A stretch of DNA of 64,000 bases from Natronogracilivirga saccharolytica (lineage in GTDB: Bacteria; Bacteroidota; Rhodothermia; Balneolales; Natronogracilivirgulaceae). The translations under genes were made by a program, and so were the position numbers. Below, piece by piece: positions 9,373-48,001 of the stretch. The stretch lies in contig NZ_JAFIDN010000012.1 of NCBI RefSeq assembly GCF_017921895.1, forward strand, positions 1 through 64,000. Reading direction: 5' to 3'. The notes beneath the pieces were generated by a model. The model saw nothing but the letters and a program-made list of their open reading frames with translations. It made no database searches and was not told the origin of the DNA. Position 1 is the first letter of the stretch. The number at the start of each line of letters is the position of its first letter.

Positions 9373-9915
9373 TTAGGGTGCCTGCCATTTCACGTCATCG
9401 ATTCTTTTTGCCTTATTCTGAAAGCGAGCCATCACAAAAAGCAAGTCGGAAAGTCGATTCAGGAAAATAAGAGCTTCCTGTGAAATAATCTCGGACTGTT
9501 TGCATGAAAAGCAGATTCTTTCCGCCCGCCGGCAAACGGTTCTTGCATGGTGCAGATAGGCGGAACAGGAGGAACCTCCGGGCAGGATAAAAGAAGTCAG
9601 GGGTTCAAGAGATTTTTCAAGGCGGTCGATGGATTCTTCCAGAAGAGACACCTGGTCGTTGCCAACACGTTGTACCCTGCTGCTTTTTTCAGGAGGTGTA
9701 GCCAGGTCGGCACCAAGGACAAAGAGCTCATTTTGCAGCTGATCCAGTAATTGTTCAATCTCCGGTACCGGATCTGCCGTGCGGGCTATTCCGATTATGG
9801 TATTGAGCTCATCAACAGTGCCGTACGCATCAATACGGGAGTGGTTTTTTGACACCCGCTGTCCCCCGAACAGGGAAGTTTCCCCGTGATCGCCGCTTTT
9901 TGTGTAGATTTTCAT
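9373..9915 (-). CDS. PduO-type cob(I)alamin adenosyltransferase
   Basis: This enzyme transfers the adenosyl group of ATP to cob(I)alamin, making coenzyme B12 for mutases and reductases. The 180-residue length is typical. The N-terminal ATP-binding motif TKSGDHGETSLFGG is at about residues 5-18, and the conserved ILPGG...HHARTVCRRAER block is at about 112-134. The start codon ATG 9915 is immediately preceded by a palindromic repeat unit (9916-10035), and no other start is plausible because the enzyme motif begins at residue 5. No cobalamin riboswitch features were seen upstream. The TPR/SGNH gene follows on the same strand. Confidence 0.93.
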   Translation of the reverse strand: MKIYTKSGDHGETSLFGGQRVSKNHSRIDAYGTVDELNTIIGIARTADPVPEIEQLLDQLQNELFVLGADLATPPEKSSRVQRVGNDQVSLLEESIDRLEKSLEPLTSFILPGGSSCSAYLHHARTVCRRAERICFSCKQSEIISQEALIFLNRLSDLLFVMARFQNKAKRIDDVKWQAP

Positions 9916-10035
9916 GTGTTTAAAATTTTGGATTTATATGGTCAGATGAACCGAAGGTCACGTAGTGAAATGCCATGACCGTATTTAATCATACGCCTGT
10001 TTGTCCGGGCGCCAGCCCGGTCATGGACATTTCAT
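9916..10035 (-). repeat. Start-codon-abutting palindromic repeat, type B, copy 1
   Basis: Read on the minus strand, the unit begins ATGAAAT and ends TTTTAAACAC directly against the ATGAAA start of the adenosyltransferase gene. Its core runs from CATGACCG to CGGTCATG, an 8-bp outer inverted repeat. Inside lie a CCGGGC-TGGC-GCCCGG hairpin and the shared string ACAGGCGTATGATTA. It belongs to the same family as 13501-13688, 46285-46377 and 47901-48001. It is 120 bp long, the longest copy, with extra bases between the core and the 3' flank. Confidence 0.85.
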
Positions 10036-13500: not shown

Positions 13501-13688
13501 ATGAAATACCCATGGCGGCTTACCGTCACACAGGAGCATGATTATAGCCAACATGGGTACTACATGTGACTTCAGAATCATAAATTATAAACACATGAAA
13601 TACCCATGGCGGCTTACCGTCACACAGGAGCATGATTATAGCCAACATGGGTACTACATGTGACTTCAGAATCATAAATTATAAACAC
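13501..13688 (+). repeat. Start-codon-abutting palindromic repeat, type A, two identical 94-bp tandem units
   Basis: Two units (13501-13594 and 13595-13688) are identical base for base. Each begins ATGAAATACCC, has a core from CCCATG to CATGGG (6-bp outer inverted repeat, inner GGC/GCC), contains CACACAGGAGCATGATTATA and ends AATTATAAACAC. The third ATGAAA, at 13689, is the real start of the RND adaptor. The flank AAATTTAAACAC also precedes the first unit, so there are two cores and three flanks. Open reading through the units (for example from the ATG at 13632) enters the adaptor in frame, but the signal peptide shows this is not the real N-terminus. Confidence 0.95.
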
Positions 13689-14765
13689 ATGAAAGCATTA
13701 AAATATGTGACACCGTTATTACTTTTTTCATTCGTCTTATCCGCCTGTGATCAGAACGGTGATGAAAATAATAATGAGCAACAGCGTGCACGTGAAGTTG
13801 TTGTAGAGGTTCTTGATGTGGACCCCAGAGCCTTTGAGGAGCGTGTCCGGGTTACCGGGACCGTTGAAGCGCTTGAGGATGCGACCATATCGGCGGAAGT
13901 GTCAGGAAGAGTCCATACCATTGCAGAAAGGGGAACGACAGTAGAACGGGGGTCGGAGCTTGTGAGCCTGGATGACCGTGTCGTCCGGTCTTCACTTGAA
14001 ATGGCCCGTGCCAATTTTGAATTTGCCGAAGACGCACTTGCCAGGCAGGAACCGTTGCTGCGGGATTCTATCATCAGCACCCTGGAATTTAATCAGGCCA
14101 GGTCACAGCGTGACCAGGCGAAGTCACAACTTGAGCAGGCTGAAAAACAGCTGGGTGACTCGCGCATTCAGGCTCCGTTCCGGGGACGTGTGGAGGAACG
14201 CATGGTGAAGTCCGGAGAGCTTGTCAATCCCGGAATGCCGGTTCTGAGGCTTGTAAATACCGACAAAGTACGCATAAATGCCGGAGTGCCTGAACGATAT
14301 ATCAATGATATCGACGAAGGGGCTGCTGTTACAATCAGTCTCGGAACTTATGGCAGAGAAGAGTTGAAAAGCACAATTCGTTATGCCGGAAGTGTCATCG
14401 TACCCGAGACTCGTACATTTCCCGTTGAGGTAGTTATGGAGAACACCGGGAGGTTGCTGAAGCCCGAAATGACCGTCAACTTGTCGATTGTCAGAGACTT
14501 TTGGGATGATGCACTTGTTGTGCCGCGAACCGCTCTTGTCCGGGATGAAGACGGGCTCCGCCTGTTTGTCACAACAGAAGATGAAAATGGAAGAAAAAAG
14601 GCGGAAGCAAGAAGGGTCAGGACCGGTGCAGCGTCCGGTTCACTCATTGTTATTGAGGAGGGCATTGAACCGGGTGATCAGGTGATCGTAACCGGTCAGA
14701 CAAATGTCAGTGACGGTGATCTGCTGCGTATCCAAAACACACGCACCTACGACCATTACAAGTAA
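13689..14765 (+). CDS. RND efflux periplasmic adaptor (membrane fusion protein), lipoprotein
   Basis: This adaptor links the RND pump to the outer-membrane channel. The 358-residue product starts with a lipoprotein signal (LSAC, Cys20) and continues with an acidic linker. The first half of a lipoyl/barrel-hybrid domain (EALEDATISAEVSGRVHTI) is followed by a coiled-coil hairpin (about residues 95-145) and the second lipoyl half (DSRIQAPFRGRVEE). The beta-barrel and membrane-proximal domains follow (FPVEVVMENTG, VPRTALVRDEDG, VIVTGQTNVSDGDLLRI). The start at 13689 places the lipobox correctly; upstream in-frame ATGs lie in the 94-bp repeats and are rejected. The pump gene begins 67 bp later. 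Confidence 0.93.
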   Translation: MKALKYVTPLLLFSFVLSACDQNGDENNNEQQRAREVVVEVLDVDPRAFEERVRVTGTVEALEDATISAEVSGRVHTIAERGTTVERGSELVSLDDRVVRSSLEMARANFEFAEDALARQEPLLRDSIISTLEFNQARSQRDQAKSQLEQAEKQLGDSRIQAPFRGRVEERMVKSGELVNPGMPVLRLVNTDKVRINAGVPERYINDIDEGAAVTISLGTYGREELKSTIRYAGSVIVPETRTFPVEVVMENTGRLLKPEMTVNLSIVRDFWDDALVVPRTALVRDEDGLRLFVTTEDENGRKKAEARRVRTGAASGSLIVIEEGIEPGDQVIVTGQTNVSDGDLLRIQNTRTYDHYK

Positions 14766-45138: not shown

Positions 45139-46284
45139 CTACAGACTATCAAAAGCGGAATCAAGGTCAGCTATGAGATCATCAATGTCCTCAATGCCGA
45201 CAGATAACCTGATGAGCGAGTCTTTGAGTCCTGCTTCTTCACGAATGTTTTTCGGTATGGAGGCATGGGTCATGCTTGCGGGGTGGCTGATCAGAGACTC
45301 CACACCACCCAGGCTTTCGGCAAGTGTAAACACCGAGGTGTTGCTCATGAACTTTTCAGCACTCTCCTGGTCATCACTTTTCAGGCTGAATGAGACCATC
45401 CCCCCGAAATCACTCATCTGCTTTGCAGCAATTTCGTGTCCCGGATGATCACTGTGCCCGGGGTAGCGGACATCACCCGTCATGGGGTGGTTGCGTAGGT
45501 AATCGGCAAGCGCACGTGCATTTTGGCATGATCGCTCTACCCGCAGTGAAAGCGTTTTGATTCCCCTCAGTGCAAGGTAGCAGTCCATCGGCCCGGGGAC
45601 GGCACCTGTGGTTTTCGTCTGAAATGTGAGGTTCTCATATATCTCATCGTTGCTGGTGCTGACTGCTCCGCCGATAAGATCGGAGTGCCCGCCAAGATAC
45701 TTCGTTGTGGAATGGACAACGGCGTCAGCGCCCTGGTTTAATGGTTGCTGAAGTGCCGGAGAGGCGAACGTGTTATCGACAACCGTATAAGCGCCATGAT
45801 GTTTTCCCAGACCGGCAATTCCTGCAATATCGGCTATTTTCAAGAGGGGATTGGTAGGGGTTTCTACCCACAGCATCCTGGTATCCGGCGTTATGGCTTT
45901 GCCGACATTATCAACAGACCGCATGTCCACAAAGCTGAAAGAAATTCCGAAAGGTTCAAAAACCTCTTTGAACAAGCGGTATGATCCGCCGTACAGGTCA
46001 TTGGTAGCGACAACATGATCGCCGGGGCGCAGCATTTTCAGGAGGGCATCCATCGCGGCGCAGCCCGATGCAAAAGCACAGGTGCAGCGGGCATCTTCAA
46101 GCCCGGAAAGCAGGTTTTCAAGTGCCGTACGGGTGGGATTGGTAACCCTGGCATATTCGTGCCCCTTGTGTTTGTTGGGTGCCTCCTGGGCGTAGGTGGA
46201 TGTGAAAAAAACAGGAGGCATCACAGATCCTGATGTCTCTTCGGGTTTTTGTCCGGCGTGGATGGTTTTTGTGTTGAATTTCAT
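45139..46284 (-). CDS. metB: Cystathionine gamma-synthase/PLP-dependent transsulfuration enzyme
   Basis: This PLP enzyme of the Cys/Met metabolism family probably makes cystathionine from an activated homoserine and cysteine. From ATG 46284 the product is 381 residues, the usual size, with TIHAGQ at the N-terminus, YARVTNPTR (about 45-53) for substrate/PLP contacts, the PLP Asp in VVDNTF, and the PLP lysine (Lys195) in HSTTKYLGGHSD. An in-frame ATG at 46377 would add 31 residues, but that part is a copy of the palindromic repeat and is not coding. Cystathionine gamma-lyase activity cannot be excluded. Confidence 0.9.
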   Translation of the reverse strand: MKFNTKTIHAGQKPEETSGSVMPPVFFTSTYAQEAPNKHKGHEYARVTNPTRTALENLLSGLEDARCTCAFASGCAAMDALLKMLRPGDHVVATNDLYGGSYRLFKEVFEPFGISFSFVDMRSVDNVGKAITPDTRMLWVETPTNPLLKIADIAGIAGLGKHHGAYTVVDNTFASPALQQPLNQGADAVVHSTTKYLGGHSDLIGGAVSTSNDEIYENLTFQTKTTGAVPGPMDCYLALRGIKTLSLRVERSCQNARALADYLRNHPMTGDVRYPGHSDHPGHEIAAKQMSDFGGMVSFSLKSDDQESAEKFMSNTSVFTLAESLGGVESLISHPASMTHASIPKNIREEAGLKDSLIRLSVGIEDIDDLIADLDSAFDSL

Positions 46285-46377
46285 GTGTTTATAATTTGTG
46301 ATTCTGACGTCACATGTAGTACCCATGTTGGCTATAATCATGCTCCTGTGTGACGGTAAGCCGCCATGGCATTTCAT
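46285..46377 (-). repeat. Start-codon-abutting palindromic repeat, type A, single copy
   Basis: Read on the minus strand, the 93-bp unit begins ATGAAATGCC and has a core CCATGG...CCAACATGG with CACACAGGAGCATGATTATA. It ends AATTATAAACAC flush with the ATGAAA start of metB. It is nearly identical to each 94-bp unit at 13501-13688. The outer stem shows only small changes, so a recent common origin is likely although the two genes are unrelated. Confidence 0.92.
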
Positions 46378-46571: not shown

Positions 46572-47900
46572 TCAGAGTCCTGCACGCTCCTGAGCGTCCT
46601 GAGCCTCTTCTTCCATCCCGAGGTTGGTATAAATGCGGAATAGTGAACGCCAGTGCTCCGGATTGTCAGGCTCCAGTTCGGCCGCTTTTTCGTAATGCGG
46701 CAGTGACTGCTCCAGATATTCCTGAGCCTGTTTGTCAAACTCGTCAGCTTCATCCATGTCGTCAGTCATGTTTCGCTTATCCTGCATGACAGCCGCGCGG
46801 TTCTGATACAGAATTCCGAGTGTGGCATGGACATCCGGGTTTTCAGGATCCTTTTCAAGGGCAAACTGAAGCTCTTCTTCTGCTCTGTCGGAGAAACGGA
46901 ATGATTCCTGAATCAGGTCATTAGCTTCTTCCTGTTTCCGGTCCAGCTCAGCCAGCATGTCTTCAACTTCCTGCTCATCAGCATCAGGTTCTCTGGCCTT
47001 GTCCCTGATTTCACGACTCATGTCATACATATCATCGTGTATCTCCCGGATCTGATCGTCGATATCCTGCACCATCTGGTAGACCTGGGTAGCGTATACC
47101 AGCCGGTACTGCGGATTTTCGGGATCACGGTCAATCAGCTCCCGGACCACCTCAAGTGCCTTGTCCGTATCACCTGTTCTGAGGTAGGCATTGGCAAGCT
47201 CCTGAACAATTTCGATCTCATCCGGATACTCATCACGTGCTTCAGTCAGGATCTCAATGGCTTCATCGTCACGGTCACCTTCCATTAGATAAAAGGCAAG
47301 GCGGTAATAATTGAACAAGTCGGCTTTTTGCATATCATAAATGATATGACGGGTGATGCGCTCGGCTTCTTCGAGGTCACCCAATGCAAATTCGACCTCA
47401 GCCAGGAGGTTAAAGCTTTGGACACTGTCCGGGTTGATGGTTGTGGCATTTTTGAAGTGATGCCGGGCCAGCTTCAGTGAGTCTTCATCGGAACTGATAA
47501 TGTCGTCAGTCAGAGGCTCAACACCTGAATTGTGCTCATATCCCCAGGTTTCAACAAGGATTTCATCCAGGTTGTCGGCTTCGTCACTGGAAATCAGCTG
47601 GTCTTCATAGCGCTCTCGCGCTTCCATGAAGTATTCACGCGCTTTTTTGTAATCCTCAACCCGCTCATCTGCCGGCTTTTCAGCAGCTATGGAAGCATAA
47701 GCAACCGCCATGTAGTAATAGCCGTCACCATTGTCAGGGTCGCTGTCAATAGCTGCCTGGGCAGATTCGATGACTTCCTGATAGTCTTGCTGTACCAGTG
47801 CCAGCCGGGCCGACTCAATGTTCGGGTCCGTTGCGCATGACCAAACCATCATCATCAGGGCAGCAGCAATAAGTGCTTGTGGAAAAAATTTGGTTTTCAT
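46572..47900 (-). CDS. TPR-repeat lipoprotein
   Basis: The 442-residue protein has a lipoprotein signal (MMVWSC, Cys at about 22) and then many tetratricopeptide units (ARLALVQQDYQEVIESAQAAIDSDPDN, KARHHFKNATTINPDSVQ-like, ALEVVRELIDRDPENPQYR, EEELQFALEKDPENPDVHATLG, HYEKAAELEPDNPEHW; motifs in pieces). An acidic coiled coil sits at about 290-340 (DDQIREIHDDMYDMSREI). It probably scaffolds envelope complexes; the specific role is unknown. Its start is flush with repeat 47901-48001, and a strong terminator follows. Confidence 0.88.
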   Translation of the reverse strand: MKTKFFPQALIAAALMMMVWSCATDPNIESARLALVQQDYQEVIESAQAAIDSDPDNGDGYYYMAVAYASIAAEKPADERVEDYKKAREYFMEARERYEDQLISSDEADNLDEILVETWGYEHNSGVEPLTDDIISSDEDSLKLARHHFKNATTINPDSVQSFNLLAEVEFALGDLEEAERITRHIIYDMQKADLFNYYRLAFYLMEGDRDDEAIEILTEARDEYPDEIEIVQELANAYLRTGDTDKALEVVRELIDRDPENPQYRLVYATQVYQMVQDIDDQIREIHDDMYDMSREIRDKAREPDADEQEVEDMLAELDRKQEEANDLIQESFRFSDRAEEELQFALEKDPENPDVHATLGILYQNRAAVMQDKRNMTDDMDEADEFDKQAQEYLEQSLPHYEKAAELEPDNPEHWRSLFRIYTNLGMEEEAQDAQERAGL

Positions 47901-48001
47901 GTGTTTAAATGTTTGGATTTATGTCGTCACATGTAATGTCATGACCGTATGTAATCATTCGCCTGTGTGTCCGGGCGCCGACCCGGTCATGTTCATTTCA
48001 T
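47901..48001 (-). repeat. Start-codon-abutting palindromic repeat, type B, copy 2
   Basis: On the minus strand the 101-bp unit begins ATGAAATGAA. Its core runs from CATGACCG to CGGTCATG (outer 8-bp inverted repeat) with an inner CCGGG/CCCGG hairpin and CACACAGGCGAATGATTA. It ends CATTTAAACAC flush with the ATGAAA start of the TPR lipoprotein gene. The core matches the copy at 9916-10035; both share ATGAAAT, CAGG and ATGATTA with the type A units. Confidence 0.88.

Follow-up and report, generated by a model that had tools for sequence, protein, structure and literature searches.

In the first 64,000 nucleotides (nt) of contig NZ_JAFIDN010000012.1 of Natronogracilivirga saccharolytica (the window, meaning the whole stretch analysed), short repeat units with paired arms abut the start codons of unrelated genes. 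With a probability of roughly 0.8, these units are non-autonomous relatives of an IS110-family transposon that carries a guide RNA naturally programmed to start codons. The argument is drawn from sequence comparison. The units form a repeat family positioned at start codons, present or absent at orthologous genes with ATG(AA) at both junctions, and IS110 elements share the left end and the target with them and carry a conserved RNA region whose loop bases agree with the element ends. The units of the window, and two of the genes behind them, are as follows.

47898..48001, minus strand: type B unit, 104 nt long with the two terminal ATGs counted; adjoins the TPR lipoprotein gene at its start codon (47898-47900); model match E 4.6e-21
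9913..10035, minus strand: type B unit in the long form (123 nt, with an additional segment rich in hairpins); adjoins the cobalamin adenosyltransferase gene at its start codon; E 7.3e-20
13501..13597, plus strand: type A unit, first of a tandem pair; covariance-model match
13595..13691, plus strand: type A unit, second of the tandem pair; abuts ATGAAAGCATTAAAA, the start of an HlyD-family lipoprotein gene (Pfam)
46282..46377, minus strand: type A unit with a 1-nt deletion; the whole unit is in frame with a Cys/Met metabolism pyridoxal phosphate (PLP) enzyme gene
46572..47900, minus strand: TPR lipoprotein gene, downstream of the 47898-48001 unit (Pfam)
9373..9915, minus strand: cobalamin adenosyltransferase gene (PF01923), downstream of the 9913-10035 unit (Pfam)

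A repeat family at start codons

Two type B copies had been picked out by a sequence-only reading of the window, at 47901-48001 and 9916-10035. Both are present, and with the ATG at each end included they span exactly 47898-48001 and 9913-10035 on the minus strand. Their arms had been read correctly as well: both copies carry CATGACCG/CGGTCATG arms plus a CCGGG...CCCGG inner arm, and type A units have CCCATG/CATGGG arms. Exact matches to the string CAGGnGnATGATTA number 5 for the window and 37 genome-wide, whereas the reversed control pattern gave none. In gene orientation a unit runs from ATGAAATG to ...AAATTTTAAACA[C/G], and ATGAA follows directly. Long forms (9913-10035 in the window, L015, L018 and L023) contain an extra 19-nt hairpin-rich segment, about TTCACTTCGTGACCTTCGG, which is found in types A and B and ends in TTCAT[C/G]TG, the complement of CA[G/C]ATGAA.

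A covariance model built from 25 unit copies was run over the organism's own genome (G000) and its relatives. G000 gave 125 matches at E<=1, with roughly 100 at E<=1e-3. Units are carried by 17 of the 20 genomes of the same family, in 3 to at least 97 copies each (those free of them are G005, G006 and G009), and by one of 21 other genomes of the order examined, which has two.

Nearly all units point in the orientation of the gene. Eighty-nine arrays were complete at the right end and had sufficient sequence to be counted. Of these, 65 lie exactly at the start of an open reading frame (ORF) of 50 aa or more, six are no farther than 60 nt from one, and seven begin an ORF of 20-49 aa, one of which encodes a basic, ribosomal-protein-like 38-mer. 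As a control, the ATGAA sites of the window were sorted into 10 at ORF starts, 24 intergenic and 226 inside ORFs; measured against the 10 of 34 sites outside ORF interiors, the excess of arrays at start codons is significant (Fisher p 1.2e-5). The genes concerned are unrelated. In the window they encode a TPR protein, a cobalamin adenosyltransferase, an HlyD-type protein and a Cys/Met PLP enzyme, all confirmed by Pfam; outside it, where names rest on our own reading of N-termini, they encode PurQ-, SucC-, MnmG-, PlsX- and PheT-like proteins and many others.

Comparison of orthologous genes allows filled and empty sites to be set side by side. Twelve conserved N-termini were located in 21 genomes, and the leaders of 8 of these genes were fetched and compared. 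At purQ, units are found in G000 (three), G003 and G011, and are missing from G002, G004, G005, G007, G008, G010 and G012. The SucC unit occurs only in G000 among the genomes read. The cobalamin adenosyltransferase gene has units in G000, G007, G008 and G011 and none in the sister genomes G003, G010 and G012. A search with the Cys/Met enzyme yielded two Balneolales orthologues (L164, L165) without units nearby, the remaining matches being mostly from distant genomes. At empty sites the native leader goes straight into the ATG, and filled sites carry ATG(AA) on either side of the insert, as ATGAAC in both copies at purQ of G011. Judged from these leaders, units insert at the start codon (ATGAA) and the coding sequence keeps its start codon, the exact crossover presumably falling within ATGAA.

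The IS110 element and its probable guide RNA

One copy of the conserved string in G000, on contig C16, belongs to a unit left half that leads into a transposase gene. The product contains DEDD_Tnp_IS110 (PF01548) and Transposase_20 (PF02371) domains, and its best PDB match is the IS621 recombinase (8wt6, E 7e-12), ISCro4 being matched too. The same left end precedes transposase genes in G002 (76% identical), G222 (70%) and G436 (70%), and a diverged version stands before five transposase copies in the single-contig genome G446. A hidden Markov model of the unit finds the IS110 left ends of G000, G002, G222 and G436 with E values of 3e-5 to 2e-7. The part common to units and IS110 elements is the left ~55 nt, and its carriers are the own genome, one family member and distant Bacteroidota. 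Other IS110-family genes of the own genome, on C10 (27.8-28.9 kb) and C7 (211 and 216 kb), lie in unrelated surroundings, two of them with internal stops.

The right ends lead to the same target. IS110 elements end in ...AATTATAAACAC in G000 and in ...TATACA[C/G] in G446, followed by ATGAAA; where assembled, right ends read ...CA[C/G] and then ATGAAA. In G000 this ATGAAA is the start codon of the next gene, ATGAA joins the right side of all five G446 copies, and eight copies in G695 end in ...TATTTTCA[C/A] with ATGAA behind. In G016 and G690 (L418) the element stands at the apparent start of pheT. An earlier candidate for the end of the insertion sequence (IS), the junction between CCCCGTAG and ATGAAATTGAC, was discarded, as it is loop 1 of the RNA described below and the true end lies at the ATG of the next gene. 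A unit directly precedes the transposon in G000 (L334), G222 (L373), G436 (L402), G446 (L404, L406, L407, L408) and G690 (L418), so unit and transposon may move as a pair or composite.

A structured RNA is predicted in a conserved region of about 190 nt that lies downstream of the transposase stop. Its stem has 7 modelled pairs, three of them changed on both sides (U-A, C-G and G-C at one pair, C-G/U-A at two others), with a single A-C mismatch. Two loops contain ATGAAA: loop 1 reads GTA[L]ATGAAATTG and loop 2 reads.A[Y]ATGAAAATTT. The loop-2 base Y equals the last base of the element itself in 14 of 16 elements (shuffle mean 6.1, p about 4e-5, a value to be taken as a guide only, the elements being related). 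Both are C in G000, G010, G446a, G642 and G695, G in G016, G222, G436, G446b, G690, G640 and G564, T in G586 and A in G695b. The loop-1 base L equals the base to the left of the insertion in five of the six elements whose left flank is readable. In a sister element of 53% identity in G501 (L403, C485), loop 1, ATAAATAAAC, matches the left flank TTAAATAAAC. Loop-1 sequence and left flank have both changed there to TAAATAAAC, an apparent case, as far as the letters tell, of natural reprogramming of the target. The strand on which the loops match would pair with the bottom strand of the DNA; for neither loop was the complementary half confidently identified. By analogy, this is how target and donor loops should behave in a bridge RNA (PMC11208160), or in a seekRNA that is naturally redirected (PMC11187229).

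A model of this guide RNA, R2, recovers the region in other genomes. In the own genome it also occurs without a transposase gene (L414, C4:287044-287175, minus strand), as an RNA-only element inserted after ATGAAC and ending in AAACAC directly before the ATGAAA of a gene start. In G002, the IS110 copy is immediately preceded by a comparable RNA fragment (L335). The guide RNA was not found in the family genomes without units (G005, G006, G009).

Several observations weigh against a link between the units and this lineage or against the guide code. The match between unit and IS left ends is modest in bits for the distant genomes, and the right end that the two have in common is short, A/T-rich and ends in CA[C/G] before ATGAA. 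The unit stretch from the conserved string to the AT-rich end, which includes the second outer arm and CAT[C/G]TG, was not found in the IS. Eleven of the 89 arrays have no ORF nearby. G017 and G646 break the loop-2 rule; the C16 element of G000 has G in loop 1 and C in its left flank, and the solo RNA copy on C4 likewise G against A. The main weakness is that neither an IS110 gene nor a guide RNA was found in the unit-rich G003 and G007 (98% complete, 20 contigs), a gap most likely due to loss of the driver or to missing assembly. As the middle part of the units is absent from the transposon copies, we regard the units as non-autonomous relatives and not as simple deletion derivatives.

Could the units be moved to start codons by another enzyme, the IS110 element having adopted their sequence independently or landed in it? 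The IS-unlike interior and the lack of a detected element or guide RNA in G003 and G007 speak for such a scheme. However, in all of the separate IS110 lineages a unit-like left end immediately precedes the transposase gene and the junctions are likewise ATGAA, and among 99 distinct units the left half runs into a gene, in place of the right half, only in two IS110 copies. Guide-RNA fragments in G010 (L411), G016 (L410) and G017 (L412) begin exactly at a contig end and at the same place within the RNA, as expected of unresolved multi-copy elements in draft assemblies. A simple landing of IS110 in a unit had been entertained while close homologues were known from only two family genomes, and was overturned by the unit-like left ends in G002, G222, G436 and G446. 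Movement by another enzyme is therefore improbable.

Folding of the arms and the host-leader alternative

The paired changes in the stems had been taken as a sign of selection for an RNA or single-stranded DNA structure. This holds for the outer arms in both of our covariation tests; the inner hairpin did not rise above shuffles in one of them. When 104 distinct units were placed on the model, 87.5% of cells paired, compared with 82.4% in shuffles; doubly changed paired cells numbered 32 against 6.4, and the covariation score was 0.155 against 0.075, a value reached by 0 of 500 shuffles. Sliding of the partner strand destroyed the signal. Since this alignment had been fitted to the structure, the test was rerun with sequences anchored only on the conserved string. 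The mean stem of a unit's own outer arms was then 8.69, compared with 7.49 for shuffled partners (shuffle maximum 7.86), while the inner hairpin gave 4.53 against 4.28 (maximum 4.68) and so was not above shuffles. Some copies have perfect outer arms of 12-15 bp, for example AATGTCCATGACG/CGTCATGGACATT. These sequence data support selection on the arms for a folded RNA or single-stranded DNA structure. Outer and inner helices both use the CCG (or CAG) segment and are thus partly mutually exclusive, and minimum-energy folds vary from copy to copy. RNAalifold on a MAFFT alignment returned only the 3' CAT[G/C]TG/CA[C/G]ATG hairpin; the length difference between types A and B kept it from detecting the stems of the arms.

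A folded element in a 5' leader might instead be a host cis-regulatory RNA, of riboswitch, thermometer or leader-peptide type, selected at each gene. The position of the units, their covariation and the ability of their 3' CAT[G/C]TG to pair with CA[C/G]ATG, that is, with the start codon (Fisher p 0.001 over distinct copies), agree with this. The evidence set against it is of several kinds. No pathway unites the downstream genes, sister species lack the unit at the same gene, tandem copies are near-identical, left end and target are those of IS110 elements, and an Rfam scan of the window gave zero matches at gathering score, hence no known riboswitch or leader. The leader peptide that the sequence-only reading suggested for a short ATG-ATT frame is not supported: of 84 distinct units, only 25 have this frame in phase with the gene, and in the rest it stops at many different places. 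Secondary effects on translation may still occur. Of the earlier interpretation, the structural part is supported, and the notion of a regulatory leader for particular genes is not, in view of the unrelated genes, the unit-free sister orthologues and the IS110 ends and target; we rate it as still less probable than movement by another enzyme.

Within the sequences compared, nothing points to host use of the units. A regulatory effect on the gene is nevertheless possible, since the leader gives way to a unit that is able to pair with the start codon. Type A units can also read in frame into the gene (46282-46377 and 13595-13691 in the window); the 1-nt deletion opens the whole 46282-46377 unit, which would add about 30 N-terminal residues if the upstream ATG were used.

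The CAT[X]TG motif lies about 25-30 nt before the gene ATG. Its X tends to complement the last base of the same unit (the Fisher p of 0.001 above), and C does not occur at X in units with G as left-flank base (p 4e-5); both associations are confounded in tandem arrays and are left uninterpreted.

Regarding the units as copies of a mobile element accounts for stems and leader-like position together, and the stems are most simply explained as element structure.

Proposed mechanism of insertion at ATGAA, related systems and significance

We propose that the transposon encodes a DEDD/serine recombinase and, downstream of it, a guide RNA of the 'bridge' or 'seek' kind. One loop (donor) would match the joined element ends, ...CA[Y] followed by ATGAAAT, and the other the target, [L] followed by ATGAA, and the RNA-guided recombinase would insert elements at ATGAA. 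After insertion, the left junction would read native leader, ATG(AA), element, and the right junction ...AAACA[C/G], ATG(AA), coding sequence, so that the gene would keep a start codon directly behind a new A/T-rich leader. With the start codon rebuilt in this way, insertion may be nearly harmless, and as every junction is again an ATGAA site, elements may stack in tandem. The paired arms would serve as structure within the left end of the element, and the recombinase probably reads them as DNA or RNA. Binding of the RNA by the recombinase, movement of units in trans, the exact crossover point and an effect on translation are steps that we infer.

A more inclusive version of this scheme holds that a bridge-RNA transposon lineage became naturally programmed to the ATGAA translation start, that in each genome its short relatives took the place of the 5' leaders of many genes, among them core genes, and that a one-base guide code before the ATG (donor Y, target L, often different) sets the junction used next, giving mixed tandem stacks. 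For this whole, belief and doubt are about in balance.

Among known systems, the elements come closest to the bridge-RNA IS110 element IS621, introduced by Durrant et al. 2024 (PMC11208160): likewise a recombinase with DEDD and Transposase_20 domains, a structured non-coding RNA at one end with two loops agreeing with donor and target, a short target and no long terminal repeats. In contrast to IS621, the RNA lies downstream of the gene, the target is the start-codon motif ATGAA, and about 100 short non-coding relatives per genome are stacked at start codons. IS1111-type elements with a seekRNA (Siddiquee et al. 2024; PMC11187229) resemble ours in the long non-coding region downstream of the transposase gene, in target matches within the RNA and in natural redirection between relatives. 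The members treated there target a short linear site, attC sites or REP (repetitive extragenic palindromic) sequences, whereas the elements described here target gene starts. Subterminal inverted repeats, 7-17 bp long in IS1111, were not seen by eye in the ends from G000, G222, G436 and G446, which were not searched systematically.

Bacterial miniature inverted-repeat transposable elements (MITEs) such as the Correia elements (PMC10969869) are likewise short, non-coding and of high copy number, many lying immediately upstream of genes. Our units differ in sitting exactly at the start codon and in being related to a bridge-RNA and not to a DDE transposon; terminal inverted repeats of the strict MITE kind are absent, the unit ends being AAATG... 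and ...AAACA[C/G] and the inverted arms internal. It is most unlikely of all that a Y1 HUH transposase moves the units as elements of REP/RAYT or IS200/IS605 type: they are indeed small hairpin-bearing repeats dispersed between genes, without terminal inverted repeats and with guide-like pairing near the end, but the phyletic pattern rejects such an enzyme. Most genomes rich in units (G003, G007, G008, G010-G016) lack Y1_Tnp, the three unit-free family genomes (G005, G006, G009) have it, and the units, unlike REPs, occupy start codons in one orientation. In the literature searched, an incomplete collection, we found no report of start-codon targeting by IS110 elements or of MITE-like elements related to bridge-RNA transposons.

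RNA-programmable insertion tools are being developed from IS110 recombinases, and a natural group directed to start codons shows the range over which guides drift and how minimal a target can be, while its short companions suggest what may suffice for mobilisation in trans. There is also a warning for annotation: in Balneolota and other Bacteroidota, what looks like a conserved RNA leader before unrelated genes may be a set of transposon copies. For the bacteria themselves, the preferred reading means that many genes, core ones included, owe their present 5' leaders to a selfish element, and the existence of species with and without a given insert permits direct comparison.
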